From: Bacteroidia bacterium
GTDB taxonomy: Bacteria > Bacteroidota > Bacteroidia > SpSt-205
DNA length: 52,176 bases
Direction: 5' to 3'
Assembly (NCBI GenBank): GCA_026413325.1
Contig: JANZYW010000008.1
Location: 1 to 52,176 of the forward strand
How positions within the stretch are numbered: position 1 is the first letter of the stretch; each line of letters starts with the position of its first letter. Shown here in pieces: positions 4,312 through 49,084 of this stretch. Under the pieces are notes generated by a model, which was not told where the DNA came from, did not search any database, and saw nothing but the letters and a program-made list of their open reading frames with translations. The translations under genes and the position numbers were made by a program.

Positions 4312-4779
4312 TTATTGCTTGGCTGGTATGACTTCGCCTCGGAATCGGAGTAGGTGCGAAGGAGGATCTGTGTTAGCAAAAACAGTGACTGTCTTCATTT
4401 GCTCCCCGGACCTTCCCTGTGAGTCAAAGACGACTTCCACAAACCCCTCTCCTCCCGGCGGAATAGGCTCTTTGGTCCATGCGGGAGCTGTGCATCCACA
4501 GGAAGGTTTCACATCAGTAATGCGAAGAGGTACAGTGCCAGGATTTGTGACCTTGAATCGGTAGGAAACCTTTTCCCCTTCTCGAATCTTACCAAAATCG
4601 TGCTCCAGCTTATCAAATTGAATCTTAGCCATAGGCTCTGCGGGAGCCTGAGCGACTTCAGAAGCACCTGAAGCAAGAGTAGTATCTGCTGAGGGAGCAG
4701 TCTGTCCTTTTTGCTCTTTGCTAACGGGAGTACAGGCTATCCAAATCCAGGTTAGACTTACTGCGAGTGCGTTCCGCAT
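4312..4779 (-). CDS. DUF1573 domain lipoprotein
   Basis: LTWIWIACTP lipobox; IQFDKLEHDFGKIREGEKVSYRFKVTNPGTVPLRITDVKPSCGCTAPAW. Confidence 0.92.
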   Translation of the reverse strand: MRNALAVSLTWIWIACTPVSKEQKGQTAPSADTTLASGASEVAQAPAEPMAKIQFDKLEHDFGKIREGEKVSYRFKVTNPGTVPLRITDVKPSCGCTAPAWTKEPIPPGGEGFVEVVFDSQGRSGEQMKTVTVFANTDPPSHLLRFRGEVIPAKQ

Positions 4780-4787
4780 AAGCAGGG

Positions 4788-4795
4788 CAAAAATA
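4788..4795 (-). promoter_or_regulatory. -7 element TATTTTTG, 8 nt before DUF1573 start
   Basis: Exact TAnnTTTG. Confidence 0.6.
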
Positions 4796-4806
4796 GCGAC
4801 TTCTTG

Positions 4807-5118
4807 TCAGGTAGTGGTGCTACGAACTTCTCCCAGTAATCCTTCTATTTCGAGCAGGAGCTGCTCTGCCTTCTTATACTCATCTGGACGCAGTCCACTT
4901 TCCATGAAGGCCTTTTGTCGGGCTTGCTCGTAACTGGAGGAGGAGTCCCCTCCAGAGACTCGGCTTCGAAGGGCGTCCCAGTACTCTCCCAGTTTCTGAC
5001 GAAGTCGCCGACGGGTATTCACCCCGCTATCAGGGGCTATAAGGATACCAACTACTGCCCCTACCGCTACTCCTGCCAAAAAGGCCCAGAAAGCGCCGCT
5101 CCCTCGAGATTCATTCAT
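4807..5118 (-). CDS. YtxH-like small membrane protein
   Basis: MNESRGSGAFWAFLAGVAVGAVVGILIAPDSGVNTRRRLRQKLGEYWD; start set by ATGA overlap with rlpA stop and by a -7 element 5 nt upstream. Confidence 0.85.
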   Translation of the reverse strand: MNESRGSGAFWAFLAGVAVGAVVGILIAPDSGVNTRRRLRQKLGEYWDALRSRVSGGDSSSSYEQARQKAFMESGLRPDEYKKAEQLLLEIEGLLGEVRSTTT

Positions 5119-5798
5119 GTCGGCAAATGTACGACAAAAGCCTGCCATCCCTCTCGCTTCAAGCGGTCGCGCAGACTTTCCGCTTCCTTACTCGAGGAGA
5201 ACCCTCCTACTACCACCCGATACAGTTTCTTGCTGCGTATTGCACTTTGCCAGAGAAACACGGGCTCTTGGACTTCCTTCTGCGCATTCCGAGCGAGCAT
5301 ATAAGCATTTGGAAGTTCAGAAAAAGCCCCAATCTGTACAGCATACGGCTTAGGTTGGATGGCTTTTCCATCCGGAGTGAAAAAAATCAAGGAAGCGGTC
5401 GGGGACTTCGGGGGTTCTTCAAACAGTTGCGTCACCTCCAGTCGGACGGCAGCGATCCCACGGGCGAGAATGCCCAACTCTGCAGCCGCCTTTTCTGAAA
5501 GGTCTATGATTCGTCCTGTTTTCAAGGGTCCCCTATCATTTATCCGCACGACTACCGATCGCCCCGAAACTTTATCTGTAACTCGAACGTACGTACCGAA
5601 AGGAAGCGTTCGATGCGCCCCTGTCAAGGCTTGCCTGTCATATCTCTCCCCCGAAGCTGTGCGCCTCCCATGAAAACTCGGTGCATAGTAAGAGGCCTCT
5701 CCCTCTTCGACATATCCCAGCTGAGCCCATCCTATTCCTATCCACCCGATGAGTCCCCCCCACTTTCTGAACAAGCTTATTCCTCTTTCACTTCGCAT
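5115..5798 (-). CDS. rlpA: Septal ring lytic transglycosylase RlpA family protein with SPOR domain
   Basis: GEASYYAPSFHGRRTASGERYDRQALTGAHRTLPFGTYVRVTD...VVVRINDRGP; C-terminal SPOR-like YAVQIGAFSELPNAYMLARN...YRVVVGGF. Confidence 0.92.
   Translation of the reverse strand: MRSERGISLFRKWGGLIGWIGIGWAQLGYVEEGEASYYAPSFHGRRTASGERYDRQALTGAHRTLPFGTYVRVTDKVSGRSVVVRINDRGPLKTGRIIDLSEKAAAELGILARGIAAVRLEVTQLFEEPPKSPTASLIFFTPDGKAIQPKPYAVQIGAFSELPNAYMLARNAQKEVQEPVFLWQSAIRSKKLYRVVVGGFSSSKEAESLRDRLKREGWQAFVVHLPT
5124..5131 (-). promoter_or_regulatory. -7 element TACATTTG, 5 nt before YtxH-like start
   Basis: Exact TAnnTTTG. Confidence 0.65.
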
Positions 5799-5967
5799 CT
5801 CTCAAATTTAAGAACTCGATGAGTGAAACTACCGCTTCGCTATCTTCTGTGAAATAGGGAACCGTTCTCCCTCTCTGACAAAGAGTATCTGAGTTCTCTA
5901 CTGGATAAAAAGGATAGTGAGATAAACATCTCTGGGAGAGATACACAGCCTTCGTAGCTGAGGGCAC
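5788..5967 (-). CDS. Possible short ORF (59 aa, GTG start), below the ORF-track cutoff, between the PaaN-type ALDH gene and rlpA
   Basis: Manual translation: MPSATKAVYLSQRCLSHYPFYPVENSDTLCQRGRTVPYFTEDSEAVVSLIEFLNLRDAK; open frame extends upstream to about 6040 without ATG; stop overlaps rlpA start region. Confidence 0.4.
   Translation of the reverse strand: MPSATKAVYLSQRCLSHYPFYPVENSDTLCQRGRTVPYFTEDSEAVVSLIEFLNLRDAK
5803..5810 (-). promoter_or_regulatory. -7 element TAAATTTG, 4 nt before rlpA start
   Basis: Exact TAnnTTTG. Confidence 0.7.
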
Positions 5968-6026
5968 AATCCGAGGCGAGTAAAACTGCTTACAAATAAA
6001 GCCTTCTTCAAAGAGACTCCCTTTTC

Positions 6027-7715
6027 CTATCCCGCTAAGCAGTCACGCACGCCTATCCAATGAAAGCGCTTGGCGATAAAGCTACTGTCCGTGAAAGAGG
6101 CATTGCTTGCAGGATTTCCTCCTGTGCCATGGAAATCGGAAAAGGCCACGCTCTGGTTGATGAAAACTTGGCCTCTAAAGTTGAAGCTTAGAGGTACTGC
6201 AGCTTCTACAAGCAGCCGAGCAGCTGATTCTTTGAAGCCAGCATCTGTGGTATAAACTGCACAGGAAAGCATACCCCTCTCCCGAGCGATTTGGTACAGA
6301 ATCTCAAGGGCTACGTGTGCACTTTCTACGGGTATCAATAAAAGACGAGGACCGAAATGCTCTTCCCTCGTGACATGTTCATACGCTGTTTGAACTTCTG
6401 CTACGATGGGGGTGAGTGTACGGGCTTGGGCAAACTGAGGGTGCGCATAGACGGTAGCGGCGCGACGTACCTGAACAAAAGTAGACAATCGATGTACCCG
6501 TTCTGCGACCCCGTCATTCTGAAGAGCACCTAAAATAGCGGGAGCTGCCTTGGGATGGGAAGCCAGCTCTTCTATAGCCTTTTGCAAGGCTTGAGCTACC
6601 TCTTCATAAGAAAGAACCCCTTGAGGAGTGCGTACGCCCGATCGAGGGATATATACATTCTGGGGTGCGGTACACATCTGTCCACTGTAGAGGCTGGCAG
6701 AAAAAGCGAGATTCTTTGCAACGGATTCTATATCGTCTACACTTTCTAAAAGAACGCAGTTTACTCCTGCTTTCTCAAGAAACGTGACTTTATTAGGTAG
6801 AGCTTCAAGATACTGACCAAATTCCGTACCTCCTGTATAATCAATAATCCGAATGAGCGGATGTTCTGCTAATGATCGGGTCACGGGTTTCTCTAAGGTG
6901 TCCACTGCGAGCTGAACGATCGATACAGGCAAGCCATATTCCTGGAAAATCTCTTGCAGGACAGCTACCACTATCGCGATAGGATAGATGGCCCGAGGAT
7001 GTGGTTTGACGATTACGGGACTACCTACGGCCAGGCTCGCGTACAGACCTGGCAGAACATTCCAAACGGGGAAGGTCGAAACGCCAATATGCAAAGAAAT
7101 ACCCTCTGGTTGAGGGATAAAGTACTTCTCTACTACGGCTTTAGCTCTACCCATCTCTCGCTCCCATCGAACGTGGGGCGGGATATGACTAAGCTCTTCA
7201 TAAGCGACAGCGAGTGCTTCTACTGCTCGATCTGCTGCATGGGGACCCGAAGCTTGGAAAGCCATCATCCATGCCTGGCCTGTCGTATGCAAGGTAGCAT
7301 GCCCTACTTCGAAAAACTTTCGAGAAAAGCGCTCTATCGACTCCATCAGGAGACCGAGTCGTTCGGACCAAGGTACCCATCGCCAGATGGATAGAGCTTC
7401 TTGAGCGGCTCCGATCCATTCACCTACGTCCGACTGGGGATAAGATATACCCAAGGGTTCCCTCGTGTAGGGGGAAATTTCATCGGATACCACCCAGCGC
7501 CTTCCTTTTTGAAGAAGGCGGTCAAAGGGACGATTGAGCTGCGCTTTGAATTCCGCTTCTCCTCGGGAAGCCTCCTCTTCTGAATAGGCCTTCACATCTT
7601 CGGGATAGGCGTACCAATACGTCCGGCGATGCCAGGCTTCCTTGGCTTCTTCTAATCGGGCTTTGTGTTTTTCCCACAGTGTGGCCCGCTGGGGGCTAAT
7701 GTGGTAAAGGTCCAT
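6027..7715 (-). CDS. Aldehyde dehydrogenase family protein, PaaN-type (phenylacetic acid degradation protein PaaN-like)
   Basis: YRRTYWYAYPEDVKAYSEEEA..., ALDH core VIVKPHPRAIYPIAIVVAVLQEI, QMCTAPQNVYIP, C-terminal FHGTGGNPASNASFTDSSFIAKRFHWIGVRDCL; start trimmed to MDLYHISPQRATLWEKH 5 nt from TACTTTTG. Confidence 0.85.
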   Translation of the reverse strand: MDLYHISPQRATLWEKHKARLEEAKEAWHRRTYWYAYPEDVKAYSEEEASRGEAEFKAQLNRPFDRLLQKGRRWVVSDEISPYTREPLGISYPQSDVGEWIGAAQEALSIWRWVPWSERLGLLMESIERFSRKFFEVGHATLHTTGQAWMMAFQASGPHAADRAVEALAVAYEELSHIPPHVRWEREMGRAKAVVEKYFIPQPEGISLHIGVSTFPVWNVLPGLYASLAVGSPVIVKPHPRAIYPIAIVVAVLQEIFQEYGLPVSIVQLAVDTLEKPVTRSLAEHPLIRIIDYTGGTEFGQYLEALPNKVTFLEKAGVNCVLLESVDDIESVAKNLAFSASLYSGQMCTAPQNVYIPRSGVRTPQGVLSYEEVAQALQKAIEELASHPKAAPAILGALQNDGVAERVHRLSTFVQVRRAATVYAHPQFAQARTLTPIVAEVQTAYEHVTREEHFGPRLLLIPVESAHVALEILYQIARERGMLSCAVYTTDAGFKESAARLLVEAAVPLSFNFRGQVFINQSVAFSDFHGTGGNPASNASFTDSSFIAKRFHWIGVRDCLAG

Positions 7716-7720
7716 CCACG

Positions 7721-7728
7721 CAAAAGTA
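7721..7728 (-). promoter_or_regulatory. -7 element TACTTTTG, 5 nt before PaaN-type ALDH start
   Basis: Exact TAnnTTTG. Confidence 0.75.
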
Positions 7729-7801
7729 ACCAGAAAAACCTTTCGTCCAGCCACTGTCACTCCTGTGAGATAGCCTCTTTCTTAGCTCTAACTTCGTTGC
7801 G

Positions 7802-9121
7802 ATGGAGCAAAGTCGAGATATTGCTGCATGGCAGGATTGGCTCTACACACGTTTGCAGGCCTATGAAAGGATCGGCAGGAAAGCTCTCCATCCCACCTTG
7901 ACGTACATGGAGAGGTGGGATGCTCTCTTGGGCCATCCGCATCGAGCTTATCCTATTATACACGTCGCTGGAACAAATGGAAAAGGGTCAACCTCAGCTT
8001 TTTTGGCCTCTATCTTACAGGCAGCAGGATACAAGGTGGGTTTACACATGTCTCCCCATCTCCATTTCTTTACTGAACGCATGCGAGTGAATGGGAAGGA
8101 GCCCCCTTCCCAGTGGGTGGATGATTTCCTTTCGTACTGGGAAAAGAAAATCGAGGAGCTCGACCTATCTTTTTTCGAAGCTACCGTGGGGATGAGCTTT
8201 GCTTTTTTTCGGGAGGCCCAGGTGGATGTCGCCGTGGTAGAGGTAGGTTTAGGGGGAAAGTGGGATGCCACCAATATCGTTATTCCTGAGCTCGCCCTTA
8301 TCACTCCGATTGGATGGGACCACGTCGAGATTTTAGGCCCTACGCTGACAGATATCGCTTATCAAAAAGCGGGTATCATCAAGGAACAGCGTCCTGTCAT
8401 CATCGCCCCTTCGCAGCCTGAGGAAGCGGTACACGTTTTCTCAGAAGTAGCCCTCGCCCGGCAAGCCCCTCTCTATGATGCCCAATCACACTATCCTATC
8501 GCCGTCCAAGGATGGCATTTTCTGCCAGGAGCTCTGAGACGGGAGTTTCTTTCCTCCCGAGAAAATCAGATTTGGCTCTCTCCTCTTACGGGAGATTATC
8601 AAGCTTCTAACCTTTCCACTGTACGCACTGCCGTAGAAGTACTCCGAGAGAAGGGATGGACTATCTCTGATAGAGCCATACAGACCGGCATAGCGCAGGT
8701 CCAGCTCCATACGGGCCTGCGAGGTAGAGCAGAGTGGCTCCGAGTGAAAGAAAAGTGGATCCTACTCGATGTAGCTCACAATCCACCAGCTTTCGCCGCT
8801 TTGAGAGAACTGCTCCGAGCCGCTCCTCTGTCCCTTCAAGGACTCCTATTGGGATTCTCTCAAGAGAAGGACATTCTCAGCTCTCTGAAAGCCTTAGGAG
8901 GATGGGAGGGCCCTGTGTTCTTCACCCAAGCAAACCTCCGTCGAGCCCTTCCCGCTGAAAAACTACGAGACATAGCTCTCGACCTGGGGTACAAGGGCGA
9001 AGCTTTTTCGACTGTAAGTGCAGCTCTTGAGGCTGCACTTGACCGCTGCGAGTCACTCTTGATAACGGGTAGTGTCTTTATCGTGAGCGAGGCTCTAAGC
9101 ACACTGAGAGCATCTCCCTAA
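7802..9121 (+). CDS. folC: Bifunctional folylpolyglutamate synthase/dihydrofolate synthase
   Basis: IIHVAGTNGKGSTSAFLASILQAAGYKVGLHMSPHLHFFTERMRVNG; Mur ligase fold. Confidence 0.95.
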   Translation: MEQSRDIAAWQDWLYTRLQAYERIGRKALHPTLTYMERWDALLGHPHRAYPIIHVAGTNGKGSTSAFLASILQAAGYKVGLHMSPHLHFFTERMRVNGKEPPSQWVDDFLSYWEKKIEELDLSFFEATVGMSFAFFREAQVDVAVVEVGLGGKWDATNIVIPELALITPIGWDHVEILGPTLTDIAYQKAGIIKEQRPVIIAPSQPEEAVHVFSEVALARQAPLYDAQSHYPIAVQGWHFLPGALRREFLSSRENQIWLSPLTGDYQASNLSTVRTAVEVLREKGWTISDRAIQTGIAQVQLHTGLRGRAEWLRVKEKWILLDVAHNPPAFAALRELLRAAPLSLQGLLLGFSQEKDILSSLKALGGWEGPVFFTQANLRRALPAEKLRDIALDLGYKGEAFSTVSAALEAALDRCESLLITGSVFIVSEALSTLRASP

Positions 9122-9472
9122 AAGAAGCACCTTTTCTACTTGGCCTGTCCATGGCTCAGCAATCTGCACAGCATGAGCAGGAAGGCAAGTCGCTTTGTGA
9201 CACTTTTGACAAAAAAAGTGTGCGTGCGTAGGCCCATCTCCATCGCAGAGGACATAGAGCGGGTCTTGCCCAGGAAGATATACCCGATAAATAAGGCCGC
9301 TCCGCTGGAGAGCGATAAGATTGCGATACACAGTAACACGGTCCAGTTCTGTGAGTCTTAGGAGCTCAGCATGCGTCTTGGGCCCTTCTGCCAAAGCTTG
9401 AAGGATACATCGACGAGGCTCTGTGCACCGCAGTCCTTTTCCGTGTAATGTATCTCGTAAAGAGGATTTCAT
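9095..9472 (-). CDS. Fur family metal-dependent transcriptional repressor
   Basis: RCTEPRRCILQALAEGPKTHAELLRLTELDRVTVYRNLIALQRSGLIYRV; CQKC...CSQC zinc site; HAHFFC. Confidence 0.92.
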   Translation of the reverse strand: MKSSLRDTLHGKGLRCTEPRRCILQALAEGPKTHAELLRLTELDRVTVYRNLIALQRSGLIYRVYLPGQDPLYVLCDGDGPTHAHFFCQKCHKATCLPAHAVQIAEPWTGQVEKVLLLGRCSQCA

Positions 9473-10023
9473 AGAGAGCGCACAGGTAAAAATACGTCTA
9501 TGTCTGAGCTACCTCGCTCTAACCCAAAGTTTTTATCCGTGGGATTGAGATAATGTCGAAGAAGGATGCGTACAGTCCCCGAAGAGAACGCCACGGGACC
9601 CTGCATCCATCTACCTCGGCCCCCTACTGGCCGTCCTAAATCATCAGCATCGGTAGGTTCTATAAGAGCTAATGAATCCGGTACAGGAAGAAGGAAAAGG
9701 CGATGCGTGTTTTTCTGCTGCTCAAATATCACGGCCGTGAGGTCTTCTACCGGATTCCCGCTTTCATTTAGCACACGTACGACGTATGAATAGACCGACC
9801 CCGCAGCGGGACGAAGGGTATCTACAGTCGGCAAACGGCCTCCAGGGCCATCTGGATCCTTATATCGTCCTTTCACGGTATCCTGGCCCTGTACAAGGTA
9901 AATCTCAACTGTGGTGACCCTGCCGTGACCTATGTCTGATGCCCCATCTTTTTTCTCTTTCTTACACCCCCAAAGAAGAGAAGCAAGCAACAAAGCCTTC
10001 CCTGCGGTTTGTACCGATTTCAT
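9469..10023 (-). CDS. Hypothetical lipoprotein
   Basis: LLASLLWGCKKEKKDG lipobox; ATGA overlap with the fur-family gene downstream. Confidence 0.8.
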   Translation of the reverse strand: MKSVQTAGKALLLASLLWGCKKEKKDGASDIGHGRVTTVEIYLVQGQDTVKGRYKDPDGPGGRLPTVDTLRPAAGSVYSYVVRVLNESGNPVEDLTAVIFEQQKNTHRLFLLPVPDSLALIEPTDADDLGRPVGGRGRWMQGPVAFSSGTVRILLRHYLNPTDKNFGLERGSSDIDVFLPVRSL

Positions 10024-10109
10024 GTTACGAAGTTACAACTATGCAGCGAAAAAGAGAGCGTCTAATAGCTCTATCCGAGCTTCAAAGGTTATGGAGGTGG
10101 AGGAGAGAG

Positions 10110-10910
10110 CTACTCTCCTAAGATAATTGGCAGTCCCTCCTTGGCGCTCCCAATAACTACTATCTTGGTATTTTGAGAAGCCGCTAAAGCTTGGGTCGCC
10201 TCAATTCCTTTCCATCTCAAAAGGTACGGATTGAGACCTGAGCTCACGATGTCCTGAAACTGTTTGATACCCAGTGCTTCGATGCGCTTTCTCTCCGCTT
10301 CTTTCTGCTCTTTTTGAATGCGAAACTCATACTCCATCGCTTCTTGCTCCTGCCTTAGTTTCCTTTCAATCGCCTCAGCGATACTTTGAGGGAGCTTTAC
10401 GGAGCGGATGAGTACGGCATCCAGGTGAATATGTTTTGTACGAAGTAAAGAGTCGGTCTCGTGATAAATTTCTTCTTGTATTTGCTCCCGCTTCGTTGAG
10501 TAAAGCTCTTCAGGAAAGTACTTACCGATAACTTTTCGAGTAGAGGCCCGTATCTGAGGGAGTACGATCTTTTCCACAAAATCAGCTCCTATCTCTCGAT
10601 GCAAAACGGGGAGCTCTCCTGGAACGGGGGCATATCGAACGGAAATATCAATATGTATGCTTAGCCCATTGCGGGCCAGTACATCCATGCTTTCCTCTTT
10701 CTCTTGCAGCCGAACGTCGTACTCTACAAGTGTATTCCAGGGGGCTATCAGGTGAAAACCTTCTTCATAAGTGCGACGGGTATCCACTCCTCCTCCAAAA
10801 GGCCGAAATAAAACCCCCAAATGACCCGCAGGGATAGTCTGGCAAGAAGAAAAGAAAAGAGGAACAAGCAGCACAAGGGCACCGAGGAAAAAAAATAGTT
10901 TAGCTTTCAT
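10110..10910 (-). CDS. SPFH/prohibitin family protein with lipobox
   Basis: LVPLFFSSCQTIPAGHLGVLFRPFGGGV...EGFHLIAPWNTLVEYDVRLQEKEESMDVLARNGLSIHIDISVRYAP...QEAMEYEFRIQKEQKEAERKRIEALGI. Confidence 0.92.
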   Translation of the reverse strand: MKAKLFFFLGALVLLVPLFFSSCQTIPAGHLGVLFRPFGGGVDTRRTYEEGFHLIAPWNTLVEYDVRLQEKEESMDVLARNGLSIHIDISVRYAPVPGELPVLHREIGADFVEKIVLPQIRASTRKVIGKYFPEELYSTKREQIQEEIYHETDSLLRTKHIHLDAVLIRSVKLPQSIAEAIERKLRQEQEAMEYEFRIQKEQKEAERKRIEALGIKQFQDIVSSGLNPYLLRWKGIEATQALAASQNTKIVVIGSAKEGLPIILGE

Positions 10911-10912
10911 TG

Positions 10913-11410
10913 TTATTTTCTTTTATAGACAGGGACGCTGGAGCAGGCTTCTCCATAAAAAACCAAGTGGGCGACAGGCATCACCCGACGAAAAAATTCG
11001 GTCATGACCATAGGAGAGATGGATGTGCAGCCTTTTAGGAGTATCTTTTTGTCTCGGTAAGAATCCCAATCCACGTGCTCTAACAAGTGGAGCCGATAGA
11101 GATCCCGTATCTCCTCAGGAGAAACCACAGCATAATAGGTGGCATGCGGGGAGAGATACATGCCTACCAGTAAAAAAGCCCATGGCGGGATAATCGCGTC
11201 TGTACTCAGATAGATGGGTACCAGAGCTCCAGCATAGGCTTCCCAGGTGTGGGACTTTAGAGCCTTACGGAATGGCTGCTCACGGAGTATGAGCCCCTCC
11301 TCAAGAAACTGCGCCAGGTCCAGAGGACGAACAGGGGGTACTGAGAGAAGCTTCTCTAAATCGATAGTAAGCAACTCCGCCGCCTCGACCCGGTTGACGG
11401 GAGTGGCCAT
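10913..11410 (-). CDS. DUF2480 family protein
   Basis: MATPVNRVEAAELLTIDLEKLL...FLEEGLILREQPFRKALKSHTWEAYAGALVPIYLSTDAIIPPWAFLLV...KKILLKGCTSISPMVMTEFFRRVMPVAHLVFYGEACSSVPVYKRK; the track N-terminus MAQKVVGSNPTVRP is translated tRNA. Confidence 0.9.
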   Translation of the reverse strand: MATPVNRVEAAELLTIDLEKLLSVPPVRPLDLAQFLEEGLILREQPFRKALKSHTWEAYAGALVPIYLSTDAIIPPWAFLLVGMYLSPHATYYAVVSPEEIRDLYRLHLLEHVDWDSYRDKKILLKGCTSISPMVMTEFFRRVMPVAHLVFYGEACSSVPVYKRK

Positions 11411-11486
11411 GGGGCGGACAGTCGGATTCGAACCGACGACCTTCTGAGCCACAGTCAGACGCTCTAACCAACTGAGCTATGCCCGC
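11410..11486 (-). tRNA. tRNA-His (GTG) with encoded CCA; G-1 encoded at 11487
   Basis: (G)GCGGGCATAGCTCAGTTGGTTAGAGCGTCTGACTGTGGCTCAGAAGGTCGTCGGTTCGAATCCGACTGTCCGCCCCA; anticodon loop CTGTGGC; C73 opposite G-1; CCA encoded at 11412-11410. Confidence 0.97.
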
Positions 11487-11495
11487 CGTGAGCAG

Positions 11496-11503
11496 CAAAG
11501 GTA
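11496..11503 (-). promoter_or_regulatory. -7 element TACCTTTG, 8 nt before tRNA-His G-1
   Basis: Exact TAnnTTTG. Confidence 0.75.
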
Positions 11504-11527
11504 CAGATTTTCTGTGTACATGCCACC

Positions 11528-12783: not shown

Positions 12784-12787
12784 ACAA

Positions 12788-12795
12788 CAAAGGTA
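12788..12795 (-). promoter_or_regulatory. -7 element TACCTTTG, 4 nt before 12783 start
   Basis: Exact TAnnTTTG. Confidence 0.75.
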
Positions 12796-12811
12796 AAAGA
12801 GAACAGATATC

Positions 12812-13015: not shown

Positions 13016-13020
13016 TTCCT

Positions 13021-13028
13021 CAAATATA
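13021..13028 (-). promoter_or_regulatory. -7 element TATATTTG, 5 nt before 13015 start
   Basis: Exact TAnnTTTG. Confidence 0.7.
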
Positions 13029-13130: not shown

Positions 13131-13138
13131 TACCTTTG
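13131..13138 (+). promoter_or_regulatory. -7 element TACCTTTG, 4 nt before M1 peptidase start
   Basis: Exact TAnnTTTG. Confidence 0.75.
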
Positions 13139-13142
13139 CGCC

Positions 13143-17880: not shown

Positions 17881-17888
17881 CAAATGTA
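17881..17888 (-). promoter_or_regulatory. -7 element TACATTTG, 4 nt before M23 peptidase start
   Basis: Exact TAnnTTTG. Confidence 0.75.
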
Positions 17889-20423: not shown

Positions 20424-20431
20424 CAAAGATA
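20424..20431 (-). promoter_or_regulatory. -7 element TATCTTTG, 4 nt before cysS GTG
   Basis: Exact TAnnTTTG. Confidence 0.75.
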
Positions 20432-20458: not shown

Positions 20459-20466
20459 TACCTTTG
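20459..20466 (+). promoter_or_regulatory. -7 element TACCTTTG, 7 nt before dusB start
   Basis: Exact TAnnTTTG. Confidence 0.75.
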
Positions 20467-22765: not shown

Positions 22766-22773
22766 TATTTTTG
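22766..22773 (+). promoter_or_regulatory. -7 element TATTTTTG, 5 nt before Omp85-like GTG
   Basis: Exact TAnnTTTG. Confidence 0.7.
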
Positions 22774-24398: not shown

Positions 24399-24418
24399 TT
24401 TCTTCTTACCTTAGGGGG

Positions 24419-29219: not shown

Positions 29220-29227
29220 CAAAGCTA
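29220..29227 (-). promoter_or_regulatory. -7 element TAGCTTTG, 6 nt before thrS start
   Basis: Exact TAnnTTTG. Confidence 0.7.
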
Positions 29228-30416: not shown

Positions 30417-30424
30417 CAAAAGTA
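30417..30424 (-). promoter_or_regulatory. -7 element TACTTTTG, 4 nt before flippase GTG
   Basis: Exact TAnnTTTG. Confidence 0.75.
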
Positions 30425-30464: not shown

Positions 30465-30472
30465 TACCTTTG
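30465..30472 (+). promoter_or_regulatory. -7 element TACCTTTG, 3 nt before methyltransferase GTG
   Basis: Exact TAnnTTTG. Confidence 0.7.
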
Positions 30473-31330: not shown

Positions 31331-31378
31331 GCTGAGAAAGACGAACCCCACATACGCTAAAAGCGTTATATTTACATT

Positions 31379-33809: not shown

Positions 33810-35059
33810 CGGCGCAGCCAAAGGTAAGAACTCCCAACCGCTGCTACGGTAAGTAAACCCGCTACACTTTCCCAAGGACGTTCCCATAGATTGTTGCCCA
33901 CCATCCAGGCCGTGAGGGCTACATAAAAGATACCTAGTGTCCAAGGCAACGATTTCTCTCTTTTATGCTTGAGAAAAAGTCCAGCAACGGTCAGGCCAGC
34001 GGAGAGGGAAAGAGTAAATCCAATATAGTTCATCACTGCATCAAACGCCGCTGAGAAAAGAAATAAGCCTGCTAAGAAAGCCACTAATATCAGAGAACGC
34101 ACAGGAGCCCCAGCTGGATTGCGCGCAGCGAGAAATCGCAGCTTAGGATAATCTTCTCCCATTACCCCCAGAACACGAGGAGCTATCATCGTCATCGCAC
34201 TGACCGAAGATACCAATGCCAAACTCACTCCCCATCCGAAAAGACGCTCCCCTACCTCGCCCCATAACTTGTATGCAAGCAGCCTTCCCACCGCCACTTG
34301 CCCAGCGAGTTCGGCTATCGGTACATTCCGCAGCAAAGCATAATTAAAGAGAACATACAACCCCATGACCAGCAAAGTACCCGTCAGAATCGCACGAGGT
34401 ACCACTCGGGTCGCATGGGGAACCTCACTCATGATATAAGCGGCAGCATTCCACCCCGAGTAGGCAAAAGAAATAAATATCAAAGAAACCGCCGAAACTC
34501 GAAGCACATCCCATGATAAACGAGGACAACTTAGCGGTTCTTTCGGTCCTGAACTGTAGAACAAAGCCCCTCCAATAAGCCCCAAAAGAAGTGCCATCTT
34601 AACGAGTACGAATGCATTTTGAATACGAGCCCCCCGGGTCAGCCCCAAAGAATGTACACCCACCAACACAGCGATGAGACCCGTAGCAGCCATTTTTCTC
34701 TGTATATCAGTAAGTGGTAAAGGCAGATAAGCCCCGAAAGCATACGCTGAAGCAGCTATGGGAGCGGCAAAGCCAGCTATGAGTGATATGAGCCCTGCGA
34801 GATAGCCTACGACAGGATGGTAAAGTATCCCCAAGAAATGATACTCCCCCCCAGAACGGGGATATCGCTTGGCCAACTCTGCATACGCTAATCCCCCTCC
34901 CAGCGCAGCTATACCGCCCAGAAGCCAAAGGAAAAGCACAGCCATGCCCGCAGGAAGTTCTGCCACAATAAAACCAGTAGTCGTGTAAATTCCCGTACCA
35001 ATCATGTTGGCTACCACCAAAAAGGTGGCAGACCCCCATCCGAACTTCTCAGAAGCCAC
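33806..35059 (-). CDS. APC family amino acid permease
   Basis: GWGSATFLVVANMIGTGIYTTTGFIVAELPAG...AKRYPRSGGEYHFL; GTG start 4 nt after TACTTTTG. Confidence 0.92.
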   Translation of the reverse strand: MASEKFGWGSATFLVVANMIGTGIYTTTGFIVAELPAGMAVLFLWLLGGIAALGGGLAYAELAKRYPRSGGEYHFLGILYHPVVGYLAGLISLIAGFAAPIAASAYAFGAYLPLPLTDIQRKMAATGLIAVLVGVHSLGLTRGARIQNAFVLVKMALLLGLIGGALFYSSGPKEPLSCPRLSWDVLRVSAVSLIFISFAYSGWNAAAYIMSEVPHATRVVPRAILTGTLLVMGLYVLFNYALLRNVPIAELAGQVAVGRLLAYKLWGEVGERLFGWGVSLALVSSVSAMTMIAPRVLGVMGEDYPKLRFLAARNPAGAPVRSLILVAFLAGLFLFSAAFDAVMNYIGFTLSLSAGLTVAGLFLKHKREKSLPWTLGIFYVALTAWMVGNNLWERPWESVAGLLTVAAVGSSYLWLRR

Positions 35060-35063: not shown

Positions 35064-35071
35064 CAAAAGTA
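35064..35071 (-). promoter_or_regulatory. -7 element TACTTTTG, 4 nt before APC permease GTG
   Basis: Exact TAnnTTTG. Confidence 0.75.
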
Positions 35072-35109
35072 GATGTGACAGAGAGAAAAAAGCCTCTATA
35101 CAGAGTTCC

Positions 35110-35117
35110 TACCTTTG
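35110..35117 (+). promoter_or_regulatory. -7 element TACCTTTG, 5 nt before gmk GTG
   Basis: Exact TAnnTTTG. Confidence 0.75.
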
Positions 35118-38743: not shown

Positions 38744-38751
38744 TATATTTG
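38744..38751 (+). promoter_or_regulatory. -7 element TATATTTG, 3 nt before secreted protein GTG
   Basis: Exact TAnnTTTG. Confidence 0.7.
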
Positions 38752-38754
38752 CTC

Positions 38755-39912: not shown

Positions 39913-40037
39913 AGTGCAAAGAGTGCGGGAGTTTGCATAAGCCAATAGAAGAAGCCCTCCATCTCGGGGTTGGCGATCGGAGACTCTCTGGATAAGCGCT
40001 AAAAGAAAGTGAACAAAGAAATGTCTACCTTGGGGGC

Positions 40038-41988: not shown

Positions 41989-42007
41989 CTCTGAGAAGAG
42001 GACCGCT

Positions 42008-43033
42008 CTATACAGCCGCTCTAAGGCTTTCGATGTAGCGTACCCATCCTTCGGGTACAGGAAGCCCCGGCTTACGAGCTCCAAAGATCCACAATACCTC
42101 CTCACCCCTCGGACCGAAAACTTCCACTGAATAAATAGAACCTTCTCGGGTAGGTTTTTCTACGAGATACACCTCTGCAATTCCTGCGGGATTGAGGTGC
42201 AGGGTGAAGACTTCATCTAAGATATTAACCCAGCCGCGAGCGGGAGAAAGTTCTTTTACAGTTCCAGTAAAGATGTGATGTATACCTGGATTGCCAACAA
42301 AAAACATGATAGGTGTCTGGCTGTCTTTTGCCCATTTGAGTAAATCTTCTACTGAAGTAGAAGCAAGTTTCCAACTAAAATGTCCTTCCGCTAAGCGGAC
42401 AGCCTGGATGCGGCTCAATCGGTGGCGTCGTAAAAGCTGATGAAAATCATGGGTATCTTGCAGAGCAGCCCATTCCTCCACGAAAGCAGAAGGAACAGGA
42501 ACCGCCCCCGAAGAAGGTACCACCTCAGAAGAGACAGGCTCGGGATGCTCCGAGACTCGAAACCGATCTACCATTTTTCCCCACCTATCCAGATGGGAAG
42601 GATCTCGTAGGTAGACCTTATGGATAGCCTCCCCTGCATGCGTGAAGAATTGCAAGCTGTAGAGCGGTTTGCCATCCTTTCCGAAGGAACGTACCGCATA
42701 AGCGTGTGCCCAATGCATGAGATACAGGCGTAGGTCGATGATGGGACTATGCAGTACGCCGATCGGTCCTTCAAATGTGGGCTCGGGATACGTACCTGTG
42801 GTTTCTATGACTACCCATTCATTTCGGCTGAGGGCCATCAGCGGTCCCATTTCGACCAAACTCCGAAGCAGCTCAACAAAAGCTGGACGCAGCGGTACAG
42901 CATCTTCGCCATAGGCTACAGGGAGCAAGGCCATCTCACTCACCTCTAGAATAGAGGCAGCATCTCGCAGGTACAAATGAGGCTTCTCCGCCTTCAATCG
43001 TTCATAGGCGGCTTTGAGAGGTGTTTGACTCAT
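42008..43033 (-). CDS. HemS/HmuS-like hemin-degrading factor
   Basis: Two-lobed HemS pattern: LRDAASILEVSEMALL...VVIETTGTYPEPTFEGPIGVLHSPIIDLRLYLMHWAHAYAV, RGWVNILDEVFTLHLNPAGIAEVYLVEKPTREGSIYSVEVFG. Confidence 0.87.
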   Translation of the reverse strand: MSQTPLKAAYERLKAEKPHLYLRDAASILEVSEMALLPVAYGEDAVPLRPAFVELLRSLVEMGPLMALSRNEWVVIETTGTYPEPTFEGPIGVLHSPIIDLRLYLMHWAHAYAVRSFGKDGKPLYSLQFFTHAGEAIHKVYLRDPSHLDRWGKMVDRFRVSEHPEPVSSEVVPSSGAVPVPSAFVEEWAALQDTHDFHQLLRRHRLSRIQAVRLAEGHFSWKLASTSVEDLLKWAKDSQTPIMFFVGNPGIHHIFTGTVKELSPARGWVNILDEVFTLHLNPAGIAEVYLVEKPTREGSIYSVEVFGPRGEEVLWIFGARKPGLPVPEGWVRYIESLRAAV

Positions 43034-43039
43034 GCTTTA

Positions 43040-43047
43040 CAAAAGTA
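43040..43047 (-). promoter_or_regulatory. -7 element TACTTTTG, 6 nt before HemS-like start
   Basis: Exact TAnnTTTG. Confidence 0.75.
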
Positions 43048-43154
43048 CCAATTTAGATTGGATACAAACAAGCAACCTTTCCTTCCTCTCAACAGGCCTG
43101 ATGGAGCCGATTCGAAGAAAAGGTTCCCCTTTCTTCTGCAATCAACTCTCATGC

Positions 43155-43162
43155 TACCTTTG
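43155..43162 (+). promoter_or_regulatory. -7 element TACCTTTG, 5 nt before gap start
   Basis: Exact TAnnTTTG. Confidence 0.75.
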
Positions 43163-43167
43163 CGCCC

Positions 43168-44175
43168 ATGGCTATCCGTGTAGGCATCAACGGCTTTGGC
43201 CGTATAGGCCGACTCGTTCTGCGTGCCCTCTTAGAAAAACCCCACGTGGAGATTGTCCAAATCAACGATATCACTGATCCCCATACCCTGGCACATCTCC
43301 TCAAGTATGACTCGGTACATGGTCGGTTTCCTTATCCAATTTCGGTCGAGGGTGATTTCATCCAGGTAAAGGGCCAGAAAATTCGCATCACCGCAGAAAA
43401 GGACCCCACAAACATAGGCTGGCATCAGACAGGGGCACATATCGTGGTAGAATCGACGGGTAAATTCACTGATGGAGCTGAGGCTCGAAAACACCTCGCA
43501 GCTGGCGCAGCGAAAGTGATTATTTCTGCTCCTGCCTCCGGAGATATCGATGCTACCGTAGTATTGGGCGTAAATGACTCCATTCTCACCCCCTCGATGC
43601 AAGTTATCTCAAACGCCTCCTGCACAACGAACTGTTTGGCTCCTATGGTGAAAGTCTTGGACAGTGCATTTGGGGTGGAACAAGGGTTCATGAATACTAT
43701 ACATGCTTATACAGCCGACCAACGCTTACAAGATGCTCCTCATAAGGACCTAAGACGGGCAAGAGCAGCTGCCGTGAACATCGTCCCTACATCTACAGGT
43801 GCAGCAAAAGCGGTAGGGCTTGTTCTCCCACATTTGAAGGGGAAACTGGACGGGATCGCCCTTCGGGTACCGGTGCCCGATGGCTCCGTCACAGACTTTG
43901 TAGCTATCCTCAAACAACCCACGGACAAGGCCTCAATCAACGCCGCTTTCAAAGCAGCTTCAGAAACTACCCTCAAAGGCATCTTGGAATACAGCGAAGA
44001 ACCCTTGGTATCTACCGATATAATCGGCAATCCCCATTCCTGTATCTTCGACGCGCAATCCACCATGGTAATGGGTTCGTTCGTTCGAGTCTTGGGTTGG
44101 TATGACAATGAATACGGTTACTCTTGTAGGACAGCTGATTTGGTCGTCAAAATAGCAGAACTATCTGGTCTATAA
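43168..44175 (+). CDS. gap: Type I glyceraldehyde-3-phosphate dehydrogenase
   Basis: RVGINGFGRIGRLVLRAL, SNASCTTNCLAP, WYDNEYGYSCR. Confidence 0.98.
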   Translation: MAIRVGINGFGRIGRLVLRALLEKPHVEIVQINDITDPHTLAHLLKYDSVHGRFPYPISVEGDFIQVKGQKIRITAEKDPTNIGWHQTGAHIVVESTGKFTDGAEARKHLAAGAAKVIISAPASGDIDATVVLGVNDSILTPSMQVISNASCTTNCLAPMVKVLDSAFGVEQGFMNTIHAYTADQRLQDAPHKDLRRARAAAVNIVPTSTGAAKAVGLVLPHLKGKLDGIALRVPVPDGSVTDFVAILKQPTDKASINAAFKAASETTLKGILEYSEEPLVSTDIIGNPHSCIFDAQSTMVMGSFVRVLGWYDNEYGYSCRTADLVVKIAELSGL

Positions 44176-44177
44176 GA

Positions 44178-45362
44178 ATGCAAAAACTTCCCTCTCTTAG
44201 AGAAGCTTCCGTTCAAGGAAAACGAGCCTTCCTGCGGGTCGACTTTAATGTACCTCTGCAGGATGGCCACATCACGGATGACCGCCGTATTCGCGCTGCA
44301 CTCCCTACGATCAAATACCTTCTCGAACGAGGAGCGACTCTTCTGCTTTGCTCACATTTAGGTCGACCCAAAGAAGGTAAAGTGGACCCTACTTACTCCC
44401 TTCAGCCTGTGAGAACCCATTTGGCTACTCTCTTAGGTCGTCCTGTAAACTGGATTGCAGACCCTTTTCATCTCCAACCTTTAGAACCTGGCAGCGTATC
44501 TCTTCTGGAAAACATCCGTTTTTTCCATGGAGAGGTTCAGAATGATCTCGAGTTTGCCCAAATCTTGGCAAAGTGGGCAGATATCTATGTCGGAGAAGCT
44601 TTTGGCTCAGTCCATCGAGCCCATGCTTCTGTAGAGGCCCTTCCCCGCCTCATGAAAGAAAAATACGCTGGTTTCCTTGTAGAGGCAGAATGGGAAAATG
44701 CTCAGAAAGTCCTCACCGCTATCGAACACCCGTACACAGTCATAGTTGGAGGTGCAAAAGTGAGCGACAAACTTCCTCTCCTCCTTCATCTCCTCCCTAA
44801 GTTAGATAGACTCCTAATAGGAGGGGGCATGAGTTATACTTTTTTACATGCCACTGGCCTCCCAATAGGTAAATCTCTCTGCGAAAAGGAACAAATAACT
44901 GCTGCGAAGGAGATACTCAATCAAGCTACTGCTCTTAATAAAAAAGTACTGCTCCCACAAGACTCCGTAGCAACCACGGAGTTCCGATCTGACGCCCCTG
45001 CTCGTACCTTTCCCCATGAAATAGGAGCTTTCCCAGAAGACTATATGGGCTTAGACATAGGCCCTGCTACTATACAAGCGGCACGTCCATTTCTTTTGGG
45101 GAGTCGTACCATCCTCTGGAATGGTCCCATGGGCGTCTTTGAATGGGAGCCCTTCCGAAATGGTACAGCAAAGATCGCAGAGTTTATCGCAGAGGAGACT
45201 CAAAGGGGAGCTTACAGCTTGGTGGGAGGGGGCGACACCGCAAGTGCCGCCGAACTCGTCGGTGTGGCAGATCGAATGAGCTTCATTTCGACCGGAGGAG
45301 GAGCTTTACTGGAGCTTTTGGCTGGTCATACTTTACCTGGAATCGCTGCCTTATTGTCATGA
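44178..45362 (+). CDS. pgk: Phosphoglycerate kinase
   Basis: RAFLRVDFNVPLQDGHITDDRRIRAALPTIKYLLERGATLLLCSHLGRPKEGK, WNGPMGVFEW, VGGGDTASAAE. Confidence 0.98.
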   Translation: MQKLPSLREASVQGKRAFLRVDFNVPLQDGHITDDRRIRAALPTIKYLLERGATLLLCSHLGRPKEGKVDPTYSLQPVRTHLATLLGRPVNWIADPFHLQPLEPGSVSLLENIRFFHGEVQNDLEFAQILAKWADIYVGEAFGSVHRAHASVEALPRLMKEKYAGFLVEAEWENAQKVLTAIEHPYTVIVGGAKVSDKLPLLLHLLPKLDRLLIGGGMSYTFLHATGLPIGKSLCEKEQITAAKEILNQATALNKKVLLPQDSVATTEFRSDAPARTFPHEIGAFPEDYMGLDIGPATIQAARPFLLGSRTILWNGPMGVFEWEPFRNGTAKIAEFIAEETQRGAYSLVGGGDTASAAELVGVADRMSFISTGGGALLELLAGHTLPGIAALLS

Positions 45363-45853
45363 AAATATGGCACTCGCCTTTCTTCGGCGCTTTTCTATGG
45401 AGTCAGATTTACTGGCAACCCATAGATGAGGCCTTCCAACGAGCCCGCTTCCAGGATAGAATCCTACTCATTTATCTGCAGACCCCTTGGTGCAGCCCTT
45501 GTGTTATGATGGAGCAGAATACATGGGCCCACCCTGTTATAGCGACCTATGCTACCGCCAACTTTCACTGTGTAAAACTAAATGCTGAAGATAGAGATTC
45601 TCTGAGTTTCAATGGTACTAAATTTCCCTACCTCCCCGAGCTCCACGCCAACCAGCTGGCATACCTTTTGTTAGAGGGGAAAATGGAGTATCCAGCGATA
45701 GTCTTGATGGAATCATCGGGTAGCACACTCCTCACCCTGAGGGGGTACATCGCCCCACGGCTGATGGATGAAATCCTCCGCTACTTCGGTGGGGGATTCT
45801 ACCGGTATCTACGATGGGAAGATTTTCAGAAGAATTACCCTTCACAACTCTGA
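45359..45853 (+). CDS. Thioredoxin-like (DUF255/thioredoxin fold) protein with CSPC motif
   Basis: FQDRILLIYLQTPWCSPCVMMEQNTWAHPVIATYATANFHCVKLNAED; ATGA overlap with pgk; start trimmed from the track ORF. Confidence 0.85.
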   Translation: MKIWHSPFFGAFLWSQIYWQPIDEAFQRARFQDRILLIYLQTPWCSPCVMMEQNTWAHPVIATYATANFHCVKLNAEDRDSLSFNGTKFPYLPELHANQLAYLLLEGKMEYPAIVLMESSGSTLLTLRGYIAPRLMDEILRYFGGGFYRYLRWEDFQKNYPSQL

Positions 45854-45858
45854 AAACT

Positions 45859-46446
45859 ATGGAACCCGACAAAGAATCCTTGTCCATAGAAGTTTCCACT
45901 TCTCCCTCCGATGTATCCTTGGAGGGAGAAGCAAGCCCATCTGCTCAACAAGAAAGCTCTTCAGCAGATGGACCCGCAACTTCTCCTTGGGAAGAAGAGC
46001 TAAAAAGATTACAAAAGGAAGTGGAACTCTGGAAAGACAGAGCCCTTCGCGCCGCCGCAGATTTGGAAAATTACCGAAGGCGAGTCCAAAGAGATCTTTC
46101 TCAACAGATTCTCCAAACCCAGGCTGACATCCTCAAGAGCTTGCTTCCCCTCTTAGACAACTTAGAGCGAGGTCTGCAAGTATCTCGAGAAGCTCCTGAC
46201 ATTGAGAAGCTTCGCGAAGGGTTGGAACTTATGCGGAGGCAGTTCTTCCACACCCTTCAACGACTGGAGGTAGAGCGCATCGAGCCAGCGGTAGGAGGGC
46301 TTCCCAATCCCGAAGATCACGAAATCTTGTCGACGGTGCCTGCTTCACCCGAGGCCCAACCTCACACCATAGTCGAAGTAGTAGAAGCGGGCTATCGATT
46401 CCGAGGCCATCTTCTCCGACCAGCTCGAGTCATCGTCACTGAATGA
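45859..46446 (+). CDS. grpE: Nucleotide exchange factor GrpE
   Basis: [24 protein letters not shown]...[12 protein letters not shown]...[27 protein letters not shown]. Confidence 0.96.
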
Positions 46447-47567
46447 GAAAAAAAGATTACTATGCCGTCCTCGGCGTCAGCCGGGATGCAGACACGGAGA
46501 CGATAAAGAGAAGCTATCGCCGGCTGGCTCTACAATACCACCCCGATAAAAATCCTGGCAATAAGGAAGCAGAAGAACGCTTCAAAGAAATATCTGAGGC
46601 ATACGAAGTACTCAGTGACCCCGACAAAAGAAGACAATATGACCTGTTCGGCAACGTCGGTGGGGCACAAAGTACGGGGAGAGATCCGTTTTCTCAAATG
46701 GTGGAGGAAGTTTTCGAGAGTTTCTTCGGAGGGGGGCGCCAAACTCGACGTCCGACTGCCATCGCAGGGGAGGATATACGGATTACCATAGAACTCAACT
46801 TAGAGGAAATCGCCAGAGGGACTTCGCGAGAAGTAGAATATCTACGTCAGGAGACTTGTGAAAGATGTGAAGGAACAGGAAGTGCAGATGGAATGCGCCC
46901 TCGAACCTGTTCAAAATGCGGAGGAAGTGGCCAGGTAGCGTATCGAGTGGGTGGAGGATTCTTTCAGCAGATTGTCTATCAAGAATGCCCGGAATGTCGT
47001 GGAATGGGCTTTGAGATACTTCATCCTTGCGTAGCTTGTCGGGGCACGGGTGTCCTTCCCAAAAAACACATCCGCACCGTGGAAATCCCCCCAGGTTCGA
47101 TGGGAGGAATGACCCTTTCGCTTCGTGGGGCAGGACATCAGGGCCCCTGGGGCGGCCCCCCTGGTGATCTTCTCTTGGAGATTATCGAAAAAAGCCATCC
47201 TGTGTTCCTTCGGGAAGGAGAAAACCTTATTTACGAAGCATGGGTCTCTTATCCCGATTTAGTGTTGGGAAGTACCTTAGAGGTACCTACCCTCACGGGC
47301 GAAAGCCTATCTATCCGTATTGAACCTGGTACTCCTTCTGGAGAAGTCTATCGCATCCCAGGAAAAGGCCTTCCCCGATATGGGAGTCGGAAGAAGGGGG
47401 ACTTGCTGATACAGGTCCATGTATGGGTTCCTCGCAAACTGGACAAATCTGAAAAAGAACTCCTCGAAGAGATACGAAAACACAAGGCTTTCTCCCCCAC
47501 TGCCAAACGGCCAGAAAAAGGATTCTTTCATCGACTCAAAGAATTCTTTCTCGGTCAGACTCGTTGA
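46443..47567 (+). CDS. dnaJ: Molecular chaperone DnaJ
   Basis: J domain [37 protein letters not shown]; four CxxCxGxG repeats; ATGA overlap with grpE. Confidence 0.98.
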
Positions 47568-47609
47568 TGGATTTAGGAAAAGTCTCTGAAATAGCATTAC
47601 TTTGTTATT

Positions 47610-48284
47610 GTGCGCTGGGTTGTTTTCAGCTGGGGCCTATTAGAGCTCCTAAGCTGTAGAAGAGAAATACCCCTGCCTCGTCCTGAGGAGGGCAGCTCTT
47701 TATTTCCGCTCCAAACAGGTTACACATGGGTCTATGAGGTAAGAGAAACCACCTACACAACCTCTGGACCCGTTCCTGCGAGGTATTTTCTCCGCATGCG
47801 CATCGATACTCCTACCACAGATGCATATAGACGTCCGTGCTTCTATGTCCTCTGGGACACATGTAGCTTGAGTGACAGTGGGAACTGGGGGTTTTACCGA
47901 GCGGGCCTGGCCTATCGAGATACTTCTCAAGCCGAACTGTGGGAAAACAATAAGCGACTGCTTATGCTTCGCTTCCCTATCTCTCCCGCCCTGCAGTGGA
48001 ACCGATACGAATACACCAATCTCCCCCCAGAAAATTGCCGGTATTTAGTCTTAGATACAACCTATACGATAGAAGCGAAAACATTCCCTCACAGTGCGTT
48101 TGTTTTGAGAAGGTGTGACACGCTGAGTCTGCTACGTAGAGCTTTCTTTTATGAAGTATACTGTCGGGGGGTTGGTTTAGTCCATTTGAAAGAAAGACTG
48201 GATGCTTTCGATCTCGGAGCCGATGGTTCGATTACTCGCAATACGGACACTTACTATCGGGAGTATCTTCTGCGCTCTCCTTAG
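47610..48284 (+). CDS. Hypothetical lipoprotein
   Basis: MRWVVFSWGLLELLSCRRE lipobox; GTG start. Confidence 0.75.
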   Translation: MRWVVFSWGLLELLSCRREIPLPRPEEGSSLFPLQTGYTWVYEVRETTYTTSGPVPARYFLRMRIDTPTTDAYRRPCFYVLWDTCSLSDSGNWGFYRAGLAYRDTSQAELWENNKRLLMLRFPISPALQWNRYEYTNLPPENCRYLVLDTTYTIEAKTFPHSAFVLRRCDTLSLLRRAFFYEVYCRGVGLVHLKERLDAFDLGADGSITRNTDTYYREYLLRSP

Positions 48285-48747
48285 GGCCCAGGATACAGTT
48301 GGGGTGTATTTTTCGAGCAGAGGGTTCACATTTGAACCCATCTACCGAAAAACGGTTCTTAGCTCTCCCCCTGAAAATCTGGCAGGAAAAGCTGCTTACC
48401 TTCTCCAGCTTAGCGATAGCTTAGTTTCTCTCCTGGAGACTCGAGGCATAAAAGGAGTGAACCTTCACCGCCATCCTGAGTGGGCTGAATACCTGGAAGA
48501 TCCGCAGAGGCTACCGTCTACTTGGAAAGGTATTTTGTATATCCAAACGCTTCATCTGGGGGCGACAGAAGACAAAGCAGTGTATGCAGAAAGCAACAAA
48601 ATACGTACTGAGCGTACCTACAGTCTGTACTTTGAAGCAGAGGGAAGGTTCCGCAACCAGACCCTACGATGGAGAAAGCTCCTTCCCCCTGACGGCTGGA
48701 AGCAAGTACTTCTCACCTCGGTTCTCGAGACGATGCTTTCTCAATAA
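48223..48747 (+). CDS. Hypothetical secreted protein
   Basis: MVRLLAIRTLTIGSIFCALLRAQ signal peptide; overlaps the upstream gene by about 60 nt. Confidence 0.7.
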   Translation: MVRLLAIRTLTIGSIFCALLRAQDTVGVYFSSRGFTFEPIYRKTVLSSPPENLAGKAAYLLQLSDSLVSLLETRGIKGVNLHRHPEWAEYLEDPQRLPSTWKGILYIQTLHLGATEDKAVYAESNKIRTERTYSLYFEAEGRFRNQTLRWRKLLPPDGWKQVLLTSVLETMLSQ

Positions 48748-48793
48748 AACAAAGCGCACCCCCGCTGTGAACTATTTCGGCTATCTTCGCAAA

Positions 48794-49084
48794 ATGCGAA
48801 AAAGCGTCGCTCTTCCCTTTCTTCTTCTTCTCTGCTTTCTCCATGCTTGTAGTTGGGGTCGTCACCCTCGAAAGCGCAAAAAAGTACGAATGCCCTGCCC
48901 CTGCAGTATATATTCTCCTCACATCGTATATTTGCCTCATGCGAAATCGCCGATGGATGGCTGCAGCACTCCTGGGATTGTTTCTATTCGTTTTTCTCCT
49001 CGAAGCTTGTGCCCCTACCCGCACTTCGAGAGGAGCGAGTTTCTGGCAGCGAAGTGGCTCTTGTCCCGCTACACGCACAGATAA
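48794..49084 (+). CDS. Small putative lipoprotein (96 aa) upstream of sprA
   Basis: MRKSVALPFLLLLCFLHACSWGRHPRKRKKVRMPCPCSIY; lipobox; ATG 4 nt after near -7 TATCTTCG; C-terminal half overlaps the next ORF. Confidence 0.5.
   Translation: MRKSVALPFLLLLCFLHACSWGRHPRKRKKVRMPCPCSIYSPHIVYLPHAKSPMDGCSTPGIVSIRFSPRSLCPYPHFERSEFLAAKWLLSRYTHR
48927..48934 (+). promoter_or_regulatory. -7 element TATATTTG, 4 nt before small lipoprotein start
   Basis: Exact TAnnTTTG. Confidence 0.7.

Follow-up and report, generated by a model that had tools for sequence, protein, structure and literature searches.

A start-adjacent TAnnTTTG promoter element points to leaderless initiation as the usual mode in a family of Bacteroidia

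In an uncultured bacterial family of the class Bacteroidia, we found the motif TAnnTTTG a few nucleotides ahead of the start codon in about half of the operon-leading genes. It is very probable that this motif is a sigma-ABfr-type -7 element and that (near-)leaderless initiation is the usual mode at genes that open a transcript in this family. This conclusion draws on direct observations: the presence and spacing of the motif, its role as a promoter at tRNA genes, its conservation, and its phylogenetic range.

The window, i.e., the whole stretch of 52,176 nt that was analyzed, is one contig of a 2.19-Mb draft genome (135 contigs, 99% complete, about 51% GC). Exact TAnnTTTG occurred 38 times on both strands of the window, compared to 23 ± 4.7 times in dinucleotide shuffles. 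Twenty-two of the 38 boxes ended 3 to 9 nt upstream of an ORF that starts with ATG or GTG, and another ended 9 nt upstream of tRNA-His. These boxes and the one-mismatch forms are given below, where the gap is the number of nucleotides between the box and the start codon.

2575..2582, minus strand: -7 box TAACTTTG, gap 4 to GTG 2570, CorA Mg2+ transporter
4788..4795, minus strand: -7 box TATTTTTG, gap 8 to ATG 4779, DUF1573 protein; the best hit in G400 has the motif at gap 5
5124..5131, minus strand: -7 box TACATTTG, gap 5 to ATG 5118, 103-aa ORF
5803..5810, minus strand: -7 box TAAATTTG, gap 4 to ATG 5798, RlpA-like (DPBB + SPOR)
7721..7728, minus strand: -7 box TACTTTTG, gap 5 to ATG 7715, aldehyde dehydrogenase family
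7789..7796, plus strand: one-mismatch box TAACTTCG, gap 5 to ATG 7802
10028..10035, minus strand: one-mismatch box TAACTTCG, gap 4 to ATG 10023
11496..11503, minus strand: -7 box TACCTTTG, 9 nt to mature tRNA-His (11486); G400 tRNA-His has an identical box, also at 9 nt
12788..12795, minus strand: -7 box TACCTTTG, gap 4 to ATG 12783, 194-aa protein
13021..13028, minus strand: -7 box TATATTTG, gap 5 to ATG 13015, 67-aa ORF (doubtful gene)
13131..13138, plus strand: -7 box TACCTTTG, gap 4 to ATG 13143, M1 aminopeptidase
17881..17888, minus strand: -7 box TACATTTG, gap 4 to ATG 17876, M23 peptidase + LysM; alternative start 17978
20424..20431, minus strand: -7 box TATCTTTG, gap 4 to GTG 20419, CysS; divergent from the Dus gene
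20459..20466, plus strand: -7 box TACCTTTG, gap 7 to ATG 20474, Dus; alternative start 20375
22766..22773, plus strand: -7 box TATTTTTG, gap 5 to GTG 22779, Omp85-like; G400 orthologue at gap 6
24407..24414, plus strand: one-mismatch box TACCTTAG, gap 4 to GTG 24419
29220..29227, minus strand: -7 box TAGCTTTG, gap 6 to ATG 29213, class II aminoacyl-tRNA synthetase with tRNA_SAD domain, ThrRS-like
30417..30424, minus strand: -7 box TACTTTTG, gap 4 to GTG 30412, polysaccharide biosynthesis protein; G400 orthologue exact, gap 4, GTG
30465..30472, plus strand: -7 box TACCTTTG, gap 3 to GTG 30476, methyltransferase; alternative start 30368
31367..31374, plus strand: one-mismatch box TATATTTA, gap 4 to ATG 31379
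33819..33826, minus strand: -7 box TACCTTTG, gap 9 to ATG 33809, 453-aa protein
35064..35071, minus strand: -7 box TACTTTTG, gap 4 to GTG 35059, amino acid permease; divergent from guanylate kinase; G400 orthologue exact, gap 4
35110..35117, plus strand: -7 box TACCTTTG, gap 5 to GTG 35123, guanylate kinase; G400 orthologue exact, gap 4
38744..38751, plus strand: -7 box TATATTTG, gap 3 to GTG 38755, 385-aa protein; alternative start 38605
40026..40033, plus strand: one-mismatch box TACCTTGG, gap 4 to ATG 40038
43040..43047, minus strand: -7 box TACTTTTG, gap 6 to ATG 43033, HemS/ChuX
43155..43162, plus strand: -7 box TACCTTTG, gap 5 to ATG 43168, GAPDH; kept in congeners
48782..48789, plus strand: one-mismatch box TATCTTCG, gap 4 to ATG 48794
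48927..48934, plus strand: -7 box TATATTTG, gap 4 to ATG 48939, 53-aa ORF (doubtful gene)

The initial annotation had counted 20 protein starts with an exact box at 3 to 8 nt. The count was correct inside its own coordinate range, although the ORFs of 53 and 67 aa are short and of doubtful status and one of the gaps is 9 nt; a further case, the CorA start at 2570, lies outside that range. The one-mismatch boxes that it had located by position were all at gap 4, and an extra one was found at gap 5 before 7802. At six loci of the window (13104, 17978, 20375, 29267, 30368, and 38605), the longest-ORF or coding-model start lies upstream of the start implied by the motif. The starts at these six loci are not independent of the motif, because they were chosen by it. 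Standard annotation probably mis-sets many gene starts in this clade. Putative back-to-back leaderless promoters were seen in divergent pairs (e.g., window 35064 to 35117), with boxes often just 2 to 60 bp apart and overlapping in one pair. No single preferred box-to-box spacing was seen in these pairs.

A genome-wide spacing peak at 3 to 8 nt had been proposed together with the initial claim, as one of two observations on which it should stand or fall. The peak was present: TAnnTTTG-N3-6-ATG occurred 344 times in the genome, compared to 69 times for the reversed pattern. In a histogram of 565 kb (ORFs of ≥80 aa), box-to-ATG gaps of 3 to 8 nt were counted 6, 47, 26, 6, 17, and 8 times, and box-to-GTG gaps of 3 to 6 nt 2, 16, 10, and 5 times. 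TTG, CTG, and ATT as start codons were flat in the same 565 kb, with no spacing response to the box. The first histogram, with its dip at gap 6, hinted at a 3-nt periodicity, which was gone once the G400 data were added. The peak was absent or minor in a GC-matched named relative, Hufsiella (50% GC), which had 6 boxes at 3 to 8 nt and 16 at 12 to 59 nt; Belliella had 4 and 9 boxes, respectively.

We called gene starts with a home-made dicodon-model gene finder that was blind to the motif. An exact box at gap 3 to 8 preceded 102 of the 441 called genes, whereas shuffled upstream regions gave 1.4 such genes on average and never more than 6 (500 shuffles). Genes were classed as operon leading when they had a divergent neighbor or lay ≥20 nt from a codirectional gene. 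With at most one mismatch allowed, a box at gap 3 to 8 was present at 130 of 238 operon-leading genes of this genome versus 29 of 188 tightly internal ones; the reversed-motif control gave 13 and 6, respectively. Boxes thus preceded about half of the operon-leading genes and roughly one gene in three overall. In the complete congener, G400, 133 of 260 operon-leading genes had a box. Of the divergent genes whose upstream 72 nt contained a strong -7 box, 52 of 67 in this genome and 65 of 79 in G400 had it at gap 3 to 8. These numbers support the earlier prediction that leaderless initiation is the default for operon-leading genes. The word is fair for that class but does not mean universal, as about 40 to 45% of operon-leading genes had no recognizable box at gap 3 to 8. 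Shine-Dalgarno 4-mers were at or below the control level.

Genes for stable RNAs revealed the nature of the box. An exact box was found 4 to 15 nt upstream of the mature end of 21 of 28 tRNA/tmRNA genes from three family genomes, and at least three more of the 28 carried the one-mismatch form TAnnTTCG. In G400, the box of tRNA-Ser(tga) lies exactly 4 nt before the mature end; therefore, the transcription start site (TSS) of this gene is at most 4 nt after the box. RNase P RNA was rejected as a TSS calibrator, as it directly abuts the upstream gene and is without its own box in nearly all genomes. In several genomes, a gene with a leaderless-type start begins within about 25 nt of the 3′ end of this RNA (L220 to L230). 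TAnnTTTG is a promoter here: it stands before most stand-alone tRNAs, is rare at operon-internal genes, and is kept between orthologues despite diverged flanks.

Leaderless initiation favors AUG and GUG, and the absence of TTG and CTG among the responding start codons fits both this preference and a purine at +1. In Flavobacterium johnsoniae, the TSS lies 4 to 5 nt downstream of the -7 box (PMC6847099); because of this distance, a start codon at gap 4 to 5 coincides with the expected +1. At 259 sites, the region from 36 to 16 nt before the box showed no enrichment of a -33 TTTG element. The lack of this element is not decisive, because F. johnsoniae is also without a clear one. A motif scan, confined to sampled stretches, revealed no gene for the cognate primary sigma factor.

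The box is conserved within the family. Twelve leading genes that have an exact box here were paired with a G400 orthologue; all 12 orthologues also had an exact box, and the flanks around these boxes had diverged. The pairs were reciprocal best hits with alignable N termini and a median protein identity of 70%. At the GAPDH gene, the DNA similarity to nearly all congeners sets in at the first base of the box or a few bases from it. Likewise, an alignment of rpsU from ten genomes showed conservation of the box and the ATG and of nothing further upstream.

To place the trait in the phylum, we used the excess of start-adjacent sites over the reversed control, which was computed for selected rows, the remaining genomes being judged by eye from tables. 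The order was represented by 13 genomes, 12 of them in the family; the comparison genomes identify its phylum as Bacteroidota and its class as, probably, Bacteroidia. The excess was 100 to 147 sites per Mb in all 12 family genomes and 31 per Mb in G392, an order-mate from another family, while most of the several hundred other class genomes scanned had ≤40. Gene-level fractions for G392 and G393 are biased upward, because their stretches were picked from contigs known to carry hits; this genome and G400 are unaffected. GAPDH relatives were at most 66% identical, and the trait was absent from all 38 genomes tested as comparators.

Elevated values were also seen elsewhere in the class. Family f91 (34% GC) reached 110 to 146 excess sites per Mb, and its gene-level sample displayed a peak of 17 at gap 4 to 5 plus many leadered boxes, i.e., a mixed form. 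In the f91 genomes G473, G504, and G528 (genus g213; L235 to L244), the density of start-adjacent TAnnTTTG per Mb matches that of the window's family. Families f98, f7, f106, and f115 had 55 to 65 excess sites per Mb. Two candidates for a leaderless default were rejected: f98 (65 per Mb) had a broad leadered mode at 12 to 24 nt with merely a minor peak at 4, and G041 (f7), which ranked second in the phylum scan, displayed no leaderless dominance among 81 genes in 120 kb.

The tight spacing between box and start codon could also be read as the mark of a translation signal, such as a ribosome-binding element in the mRNA. We consider this highly improbable, as the box is also found upstream of tRNA genes, is rare at operon-internal genes, and is the known sigma-ABfr -7 consensus with its known TSS spacing. 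There is next to no chance that the peak stems from mis-called starts or base composition. Although the gene finder was home-made and some of its starts differ from the motif start, it was blind to the motif, the reversed and shuffled controls were flat, the N termini of orthologues agree, and the GC-matched Hufsiella is without the peak; the controls refute this reading.

It is unlikely that the start-adjacent box is a secondary promoter and that most transcripts come from upstream promoters with ordinary leaders. Mapped Bacteroidota are indeed mostly leadered, and the best strong box of 13 of the 67 divergent genes in this genome lies at 12 to 71 nt. However, strong boxes are far rarer at 12 to 71 nt than at 3 to 8 nt, and the median start-to-start spacing of divergent genes, 54 to 68 nt in this genome and G400 versus 225 to 285 nt in two leadered relatives, leaves little room for promoters of this kind. 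Single genes may have a second, leadered promoter further upstream.

According to our model of leaderless initiation, transcription would begin with the initial A or G of the start codon at gap 4 to 5 and 1 to 4 nt upstream of it at gap 6 to 8, and the 5′-terminal AUG or GUG would be recognized by the ribosome. We infer both the exact TSS and the recognition of the mRNA 5′ end from the arrangement of box and start codon. Downstream genes of an operon would be reached by coupling, which we infer because neither a Shine-Dalgarno sequence nor the adenine context of other Bacteroidia is present.

Three new correlates accompany the trait: the Kozak-like adenines are absent, the TPP riboswitch was not found, and rpsU is near-leaderless. 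Adenine enrichment at -3, -6, and -15 to -11 was at background level in this genome and G400, internal genes included, and was present in Hufsiella and Belliella. A genome search for the TPP riboswitch gave no hit in the 12 family genomes and hits in 22 of 27 others (Fisher P = 1.6e-6, relatedness ignored). The riboswitch was also missing from the order-mate G392, and its absence could be partly due to small genome size. The one thiC gene examined, that of G400 (NCBIfam confirmed; L143:5647-7470), starts with TATATTTG-acac-ATG and has no TPP riboswitch. An Rfam search for riboswitches in general covered about 686 kb of the family and gave no hit; this survey is without power, because 140 kb of Hufsiella was also empty, and only the genome search for TPP is informative.

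In much of the phylum, rpsU carries an extended Shine-Dalgarno sequence, which autoregulates it (PMC9976891). In all 11 family genomes where rpsU was found, a box lies 4 to 7 nt before the ATG (10 exact, 1 with one mismatch), and no Shine-Dalgarno sequence precedes the gene. With transcription starting as predicted, the rpsU Shine-Dalgarno circuit would therefore be impossible in this family. bS21 is present in 11 of the 12 family genomes, and wherever the reading reaches that far, the protein retains Tyr54, which in F. johnsoniae redirects the 16S tail. The bS21 gene was not found in this genome, probably as the result of an assembly gap, and bS1 is present. The 16S model gave no match in the 13 order genomes, the single-contig G400 included; rRNA is perhaps absent from the sequences searched. 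The adjacent tRNA-Ile and tRNA-Ala genes of G400 (L170:8032-8188) form a pair that has its own promoter, and the 20-kb stretch around them gave no rRNA match.

The promoters described here share with the sigma-ABfr promoters of Bacteroides fragilis, F. johnsoniae, Flavobacterium psychrophilum, and Bacteroides thetaiotaomicron the TAnnTTTG -7 box with G disfavored at nn, the A-rich stretch just upstream of it, and the lack of a clear -33 element. The 4 to 5 nt to the initiating purine in those species is predicted here likewise. In the mapped species, however, the box lies tens of nucleotides from the start, whereas in this family it abuts the start codon in about half of the leading genes. Leaders have a mean of 33 nt in F. 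johnsoniae and medians of 32 nt in B. thetaiotaomicron and 24 nt in F. psychrophilum. Short or leaderless transcripts make up 3.7 to 13% in mapped species. With at most 5.5% in two species and 13% short leaders in a third, the authors of these maps discounted leaderless initiation as the way in which starts are chosen.

TA-led genes of Actinobacteria and Deinococcus-Thermus (Zheng et al. 2011, PMC3160421) resemble ours in having a -10-type box about 10 to 12 nt upstream of the start and no Shine-Dalgarno sequence, but their sigma consensus differs. In this family as well, a short, fixed distance separates box and start codon, and no Shine-Dalgarno sequence is present. The survey of Zheng et al. 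listed Bacteroidetes with many "atypical" signals, and its Pribnow-based reference may miss TAnnTTTG (PMC3160421). Compared to the Kozak-like leadered initiation of Bacteroidia (PMC6847099, PMC9976891), the unused Shine-Dalgarno and bS21 with Tyr54 are shared, whereas the adenine context is absent here. Leaderless mRNAs and the -7 box are thus already known; we found no report of their default use by a lineage of Bacteroidota in the open-access literature. Given its predicted leaderless state, the family should differ from every member of the phylum with mapped transcripts in that literature.

Tentatively, and with somewhat less than even confidence, we propose that the leaderless default led to the loss of regulation through leaders (with the TPP riboswitch and the adenine context missing and rpsU released from its Shine-Dalgarno circuit), that the ribosomes, with their sequestered anti-Shine-Dalgarno, have adapted chiefly to 5′-terminal starts, and that the AT-rich f91 is independently moving the same way. 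For annotators, scanning for the promoter offers a simple means of settling gene starts in such genomes. Bacteroidota ribosomes ignore the Shine-Dalgarno sequence, and how they choose their starts is an open question. A clade in which leaderless initiation is the rule, beside leadered relatives of the same class, would make the switch traceable gene by gene.
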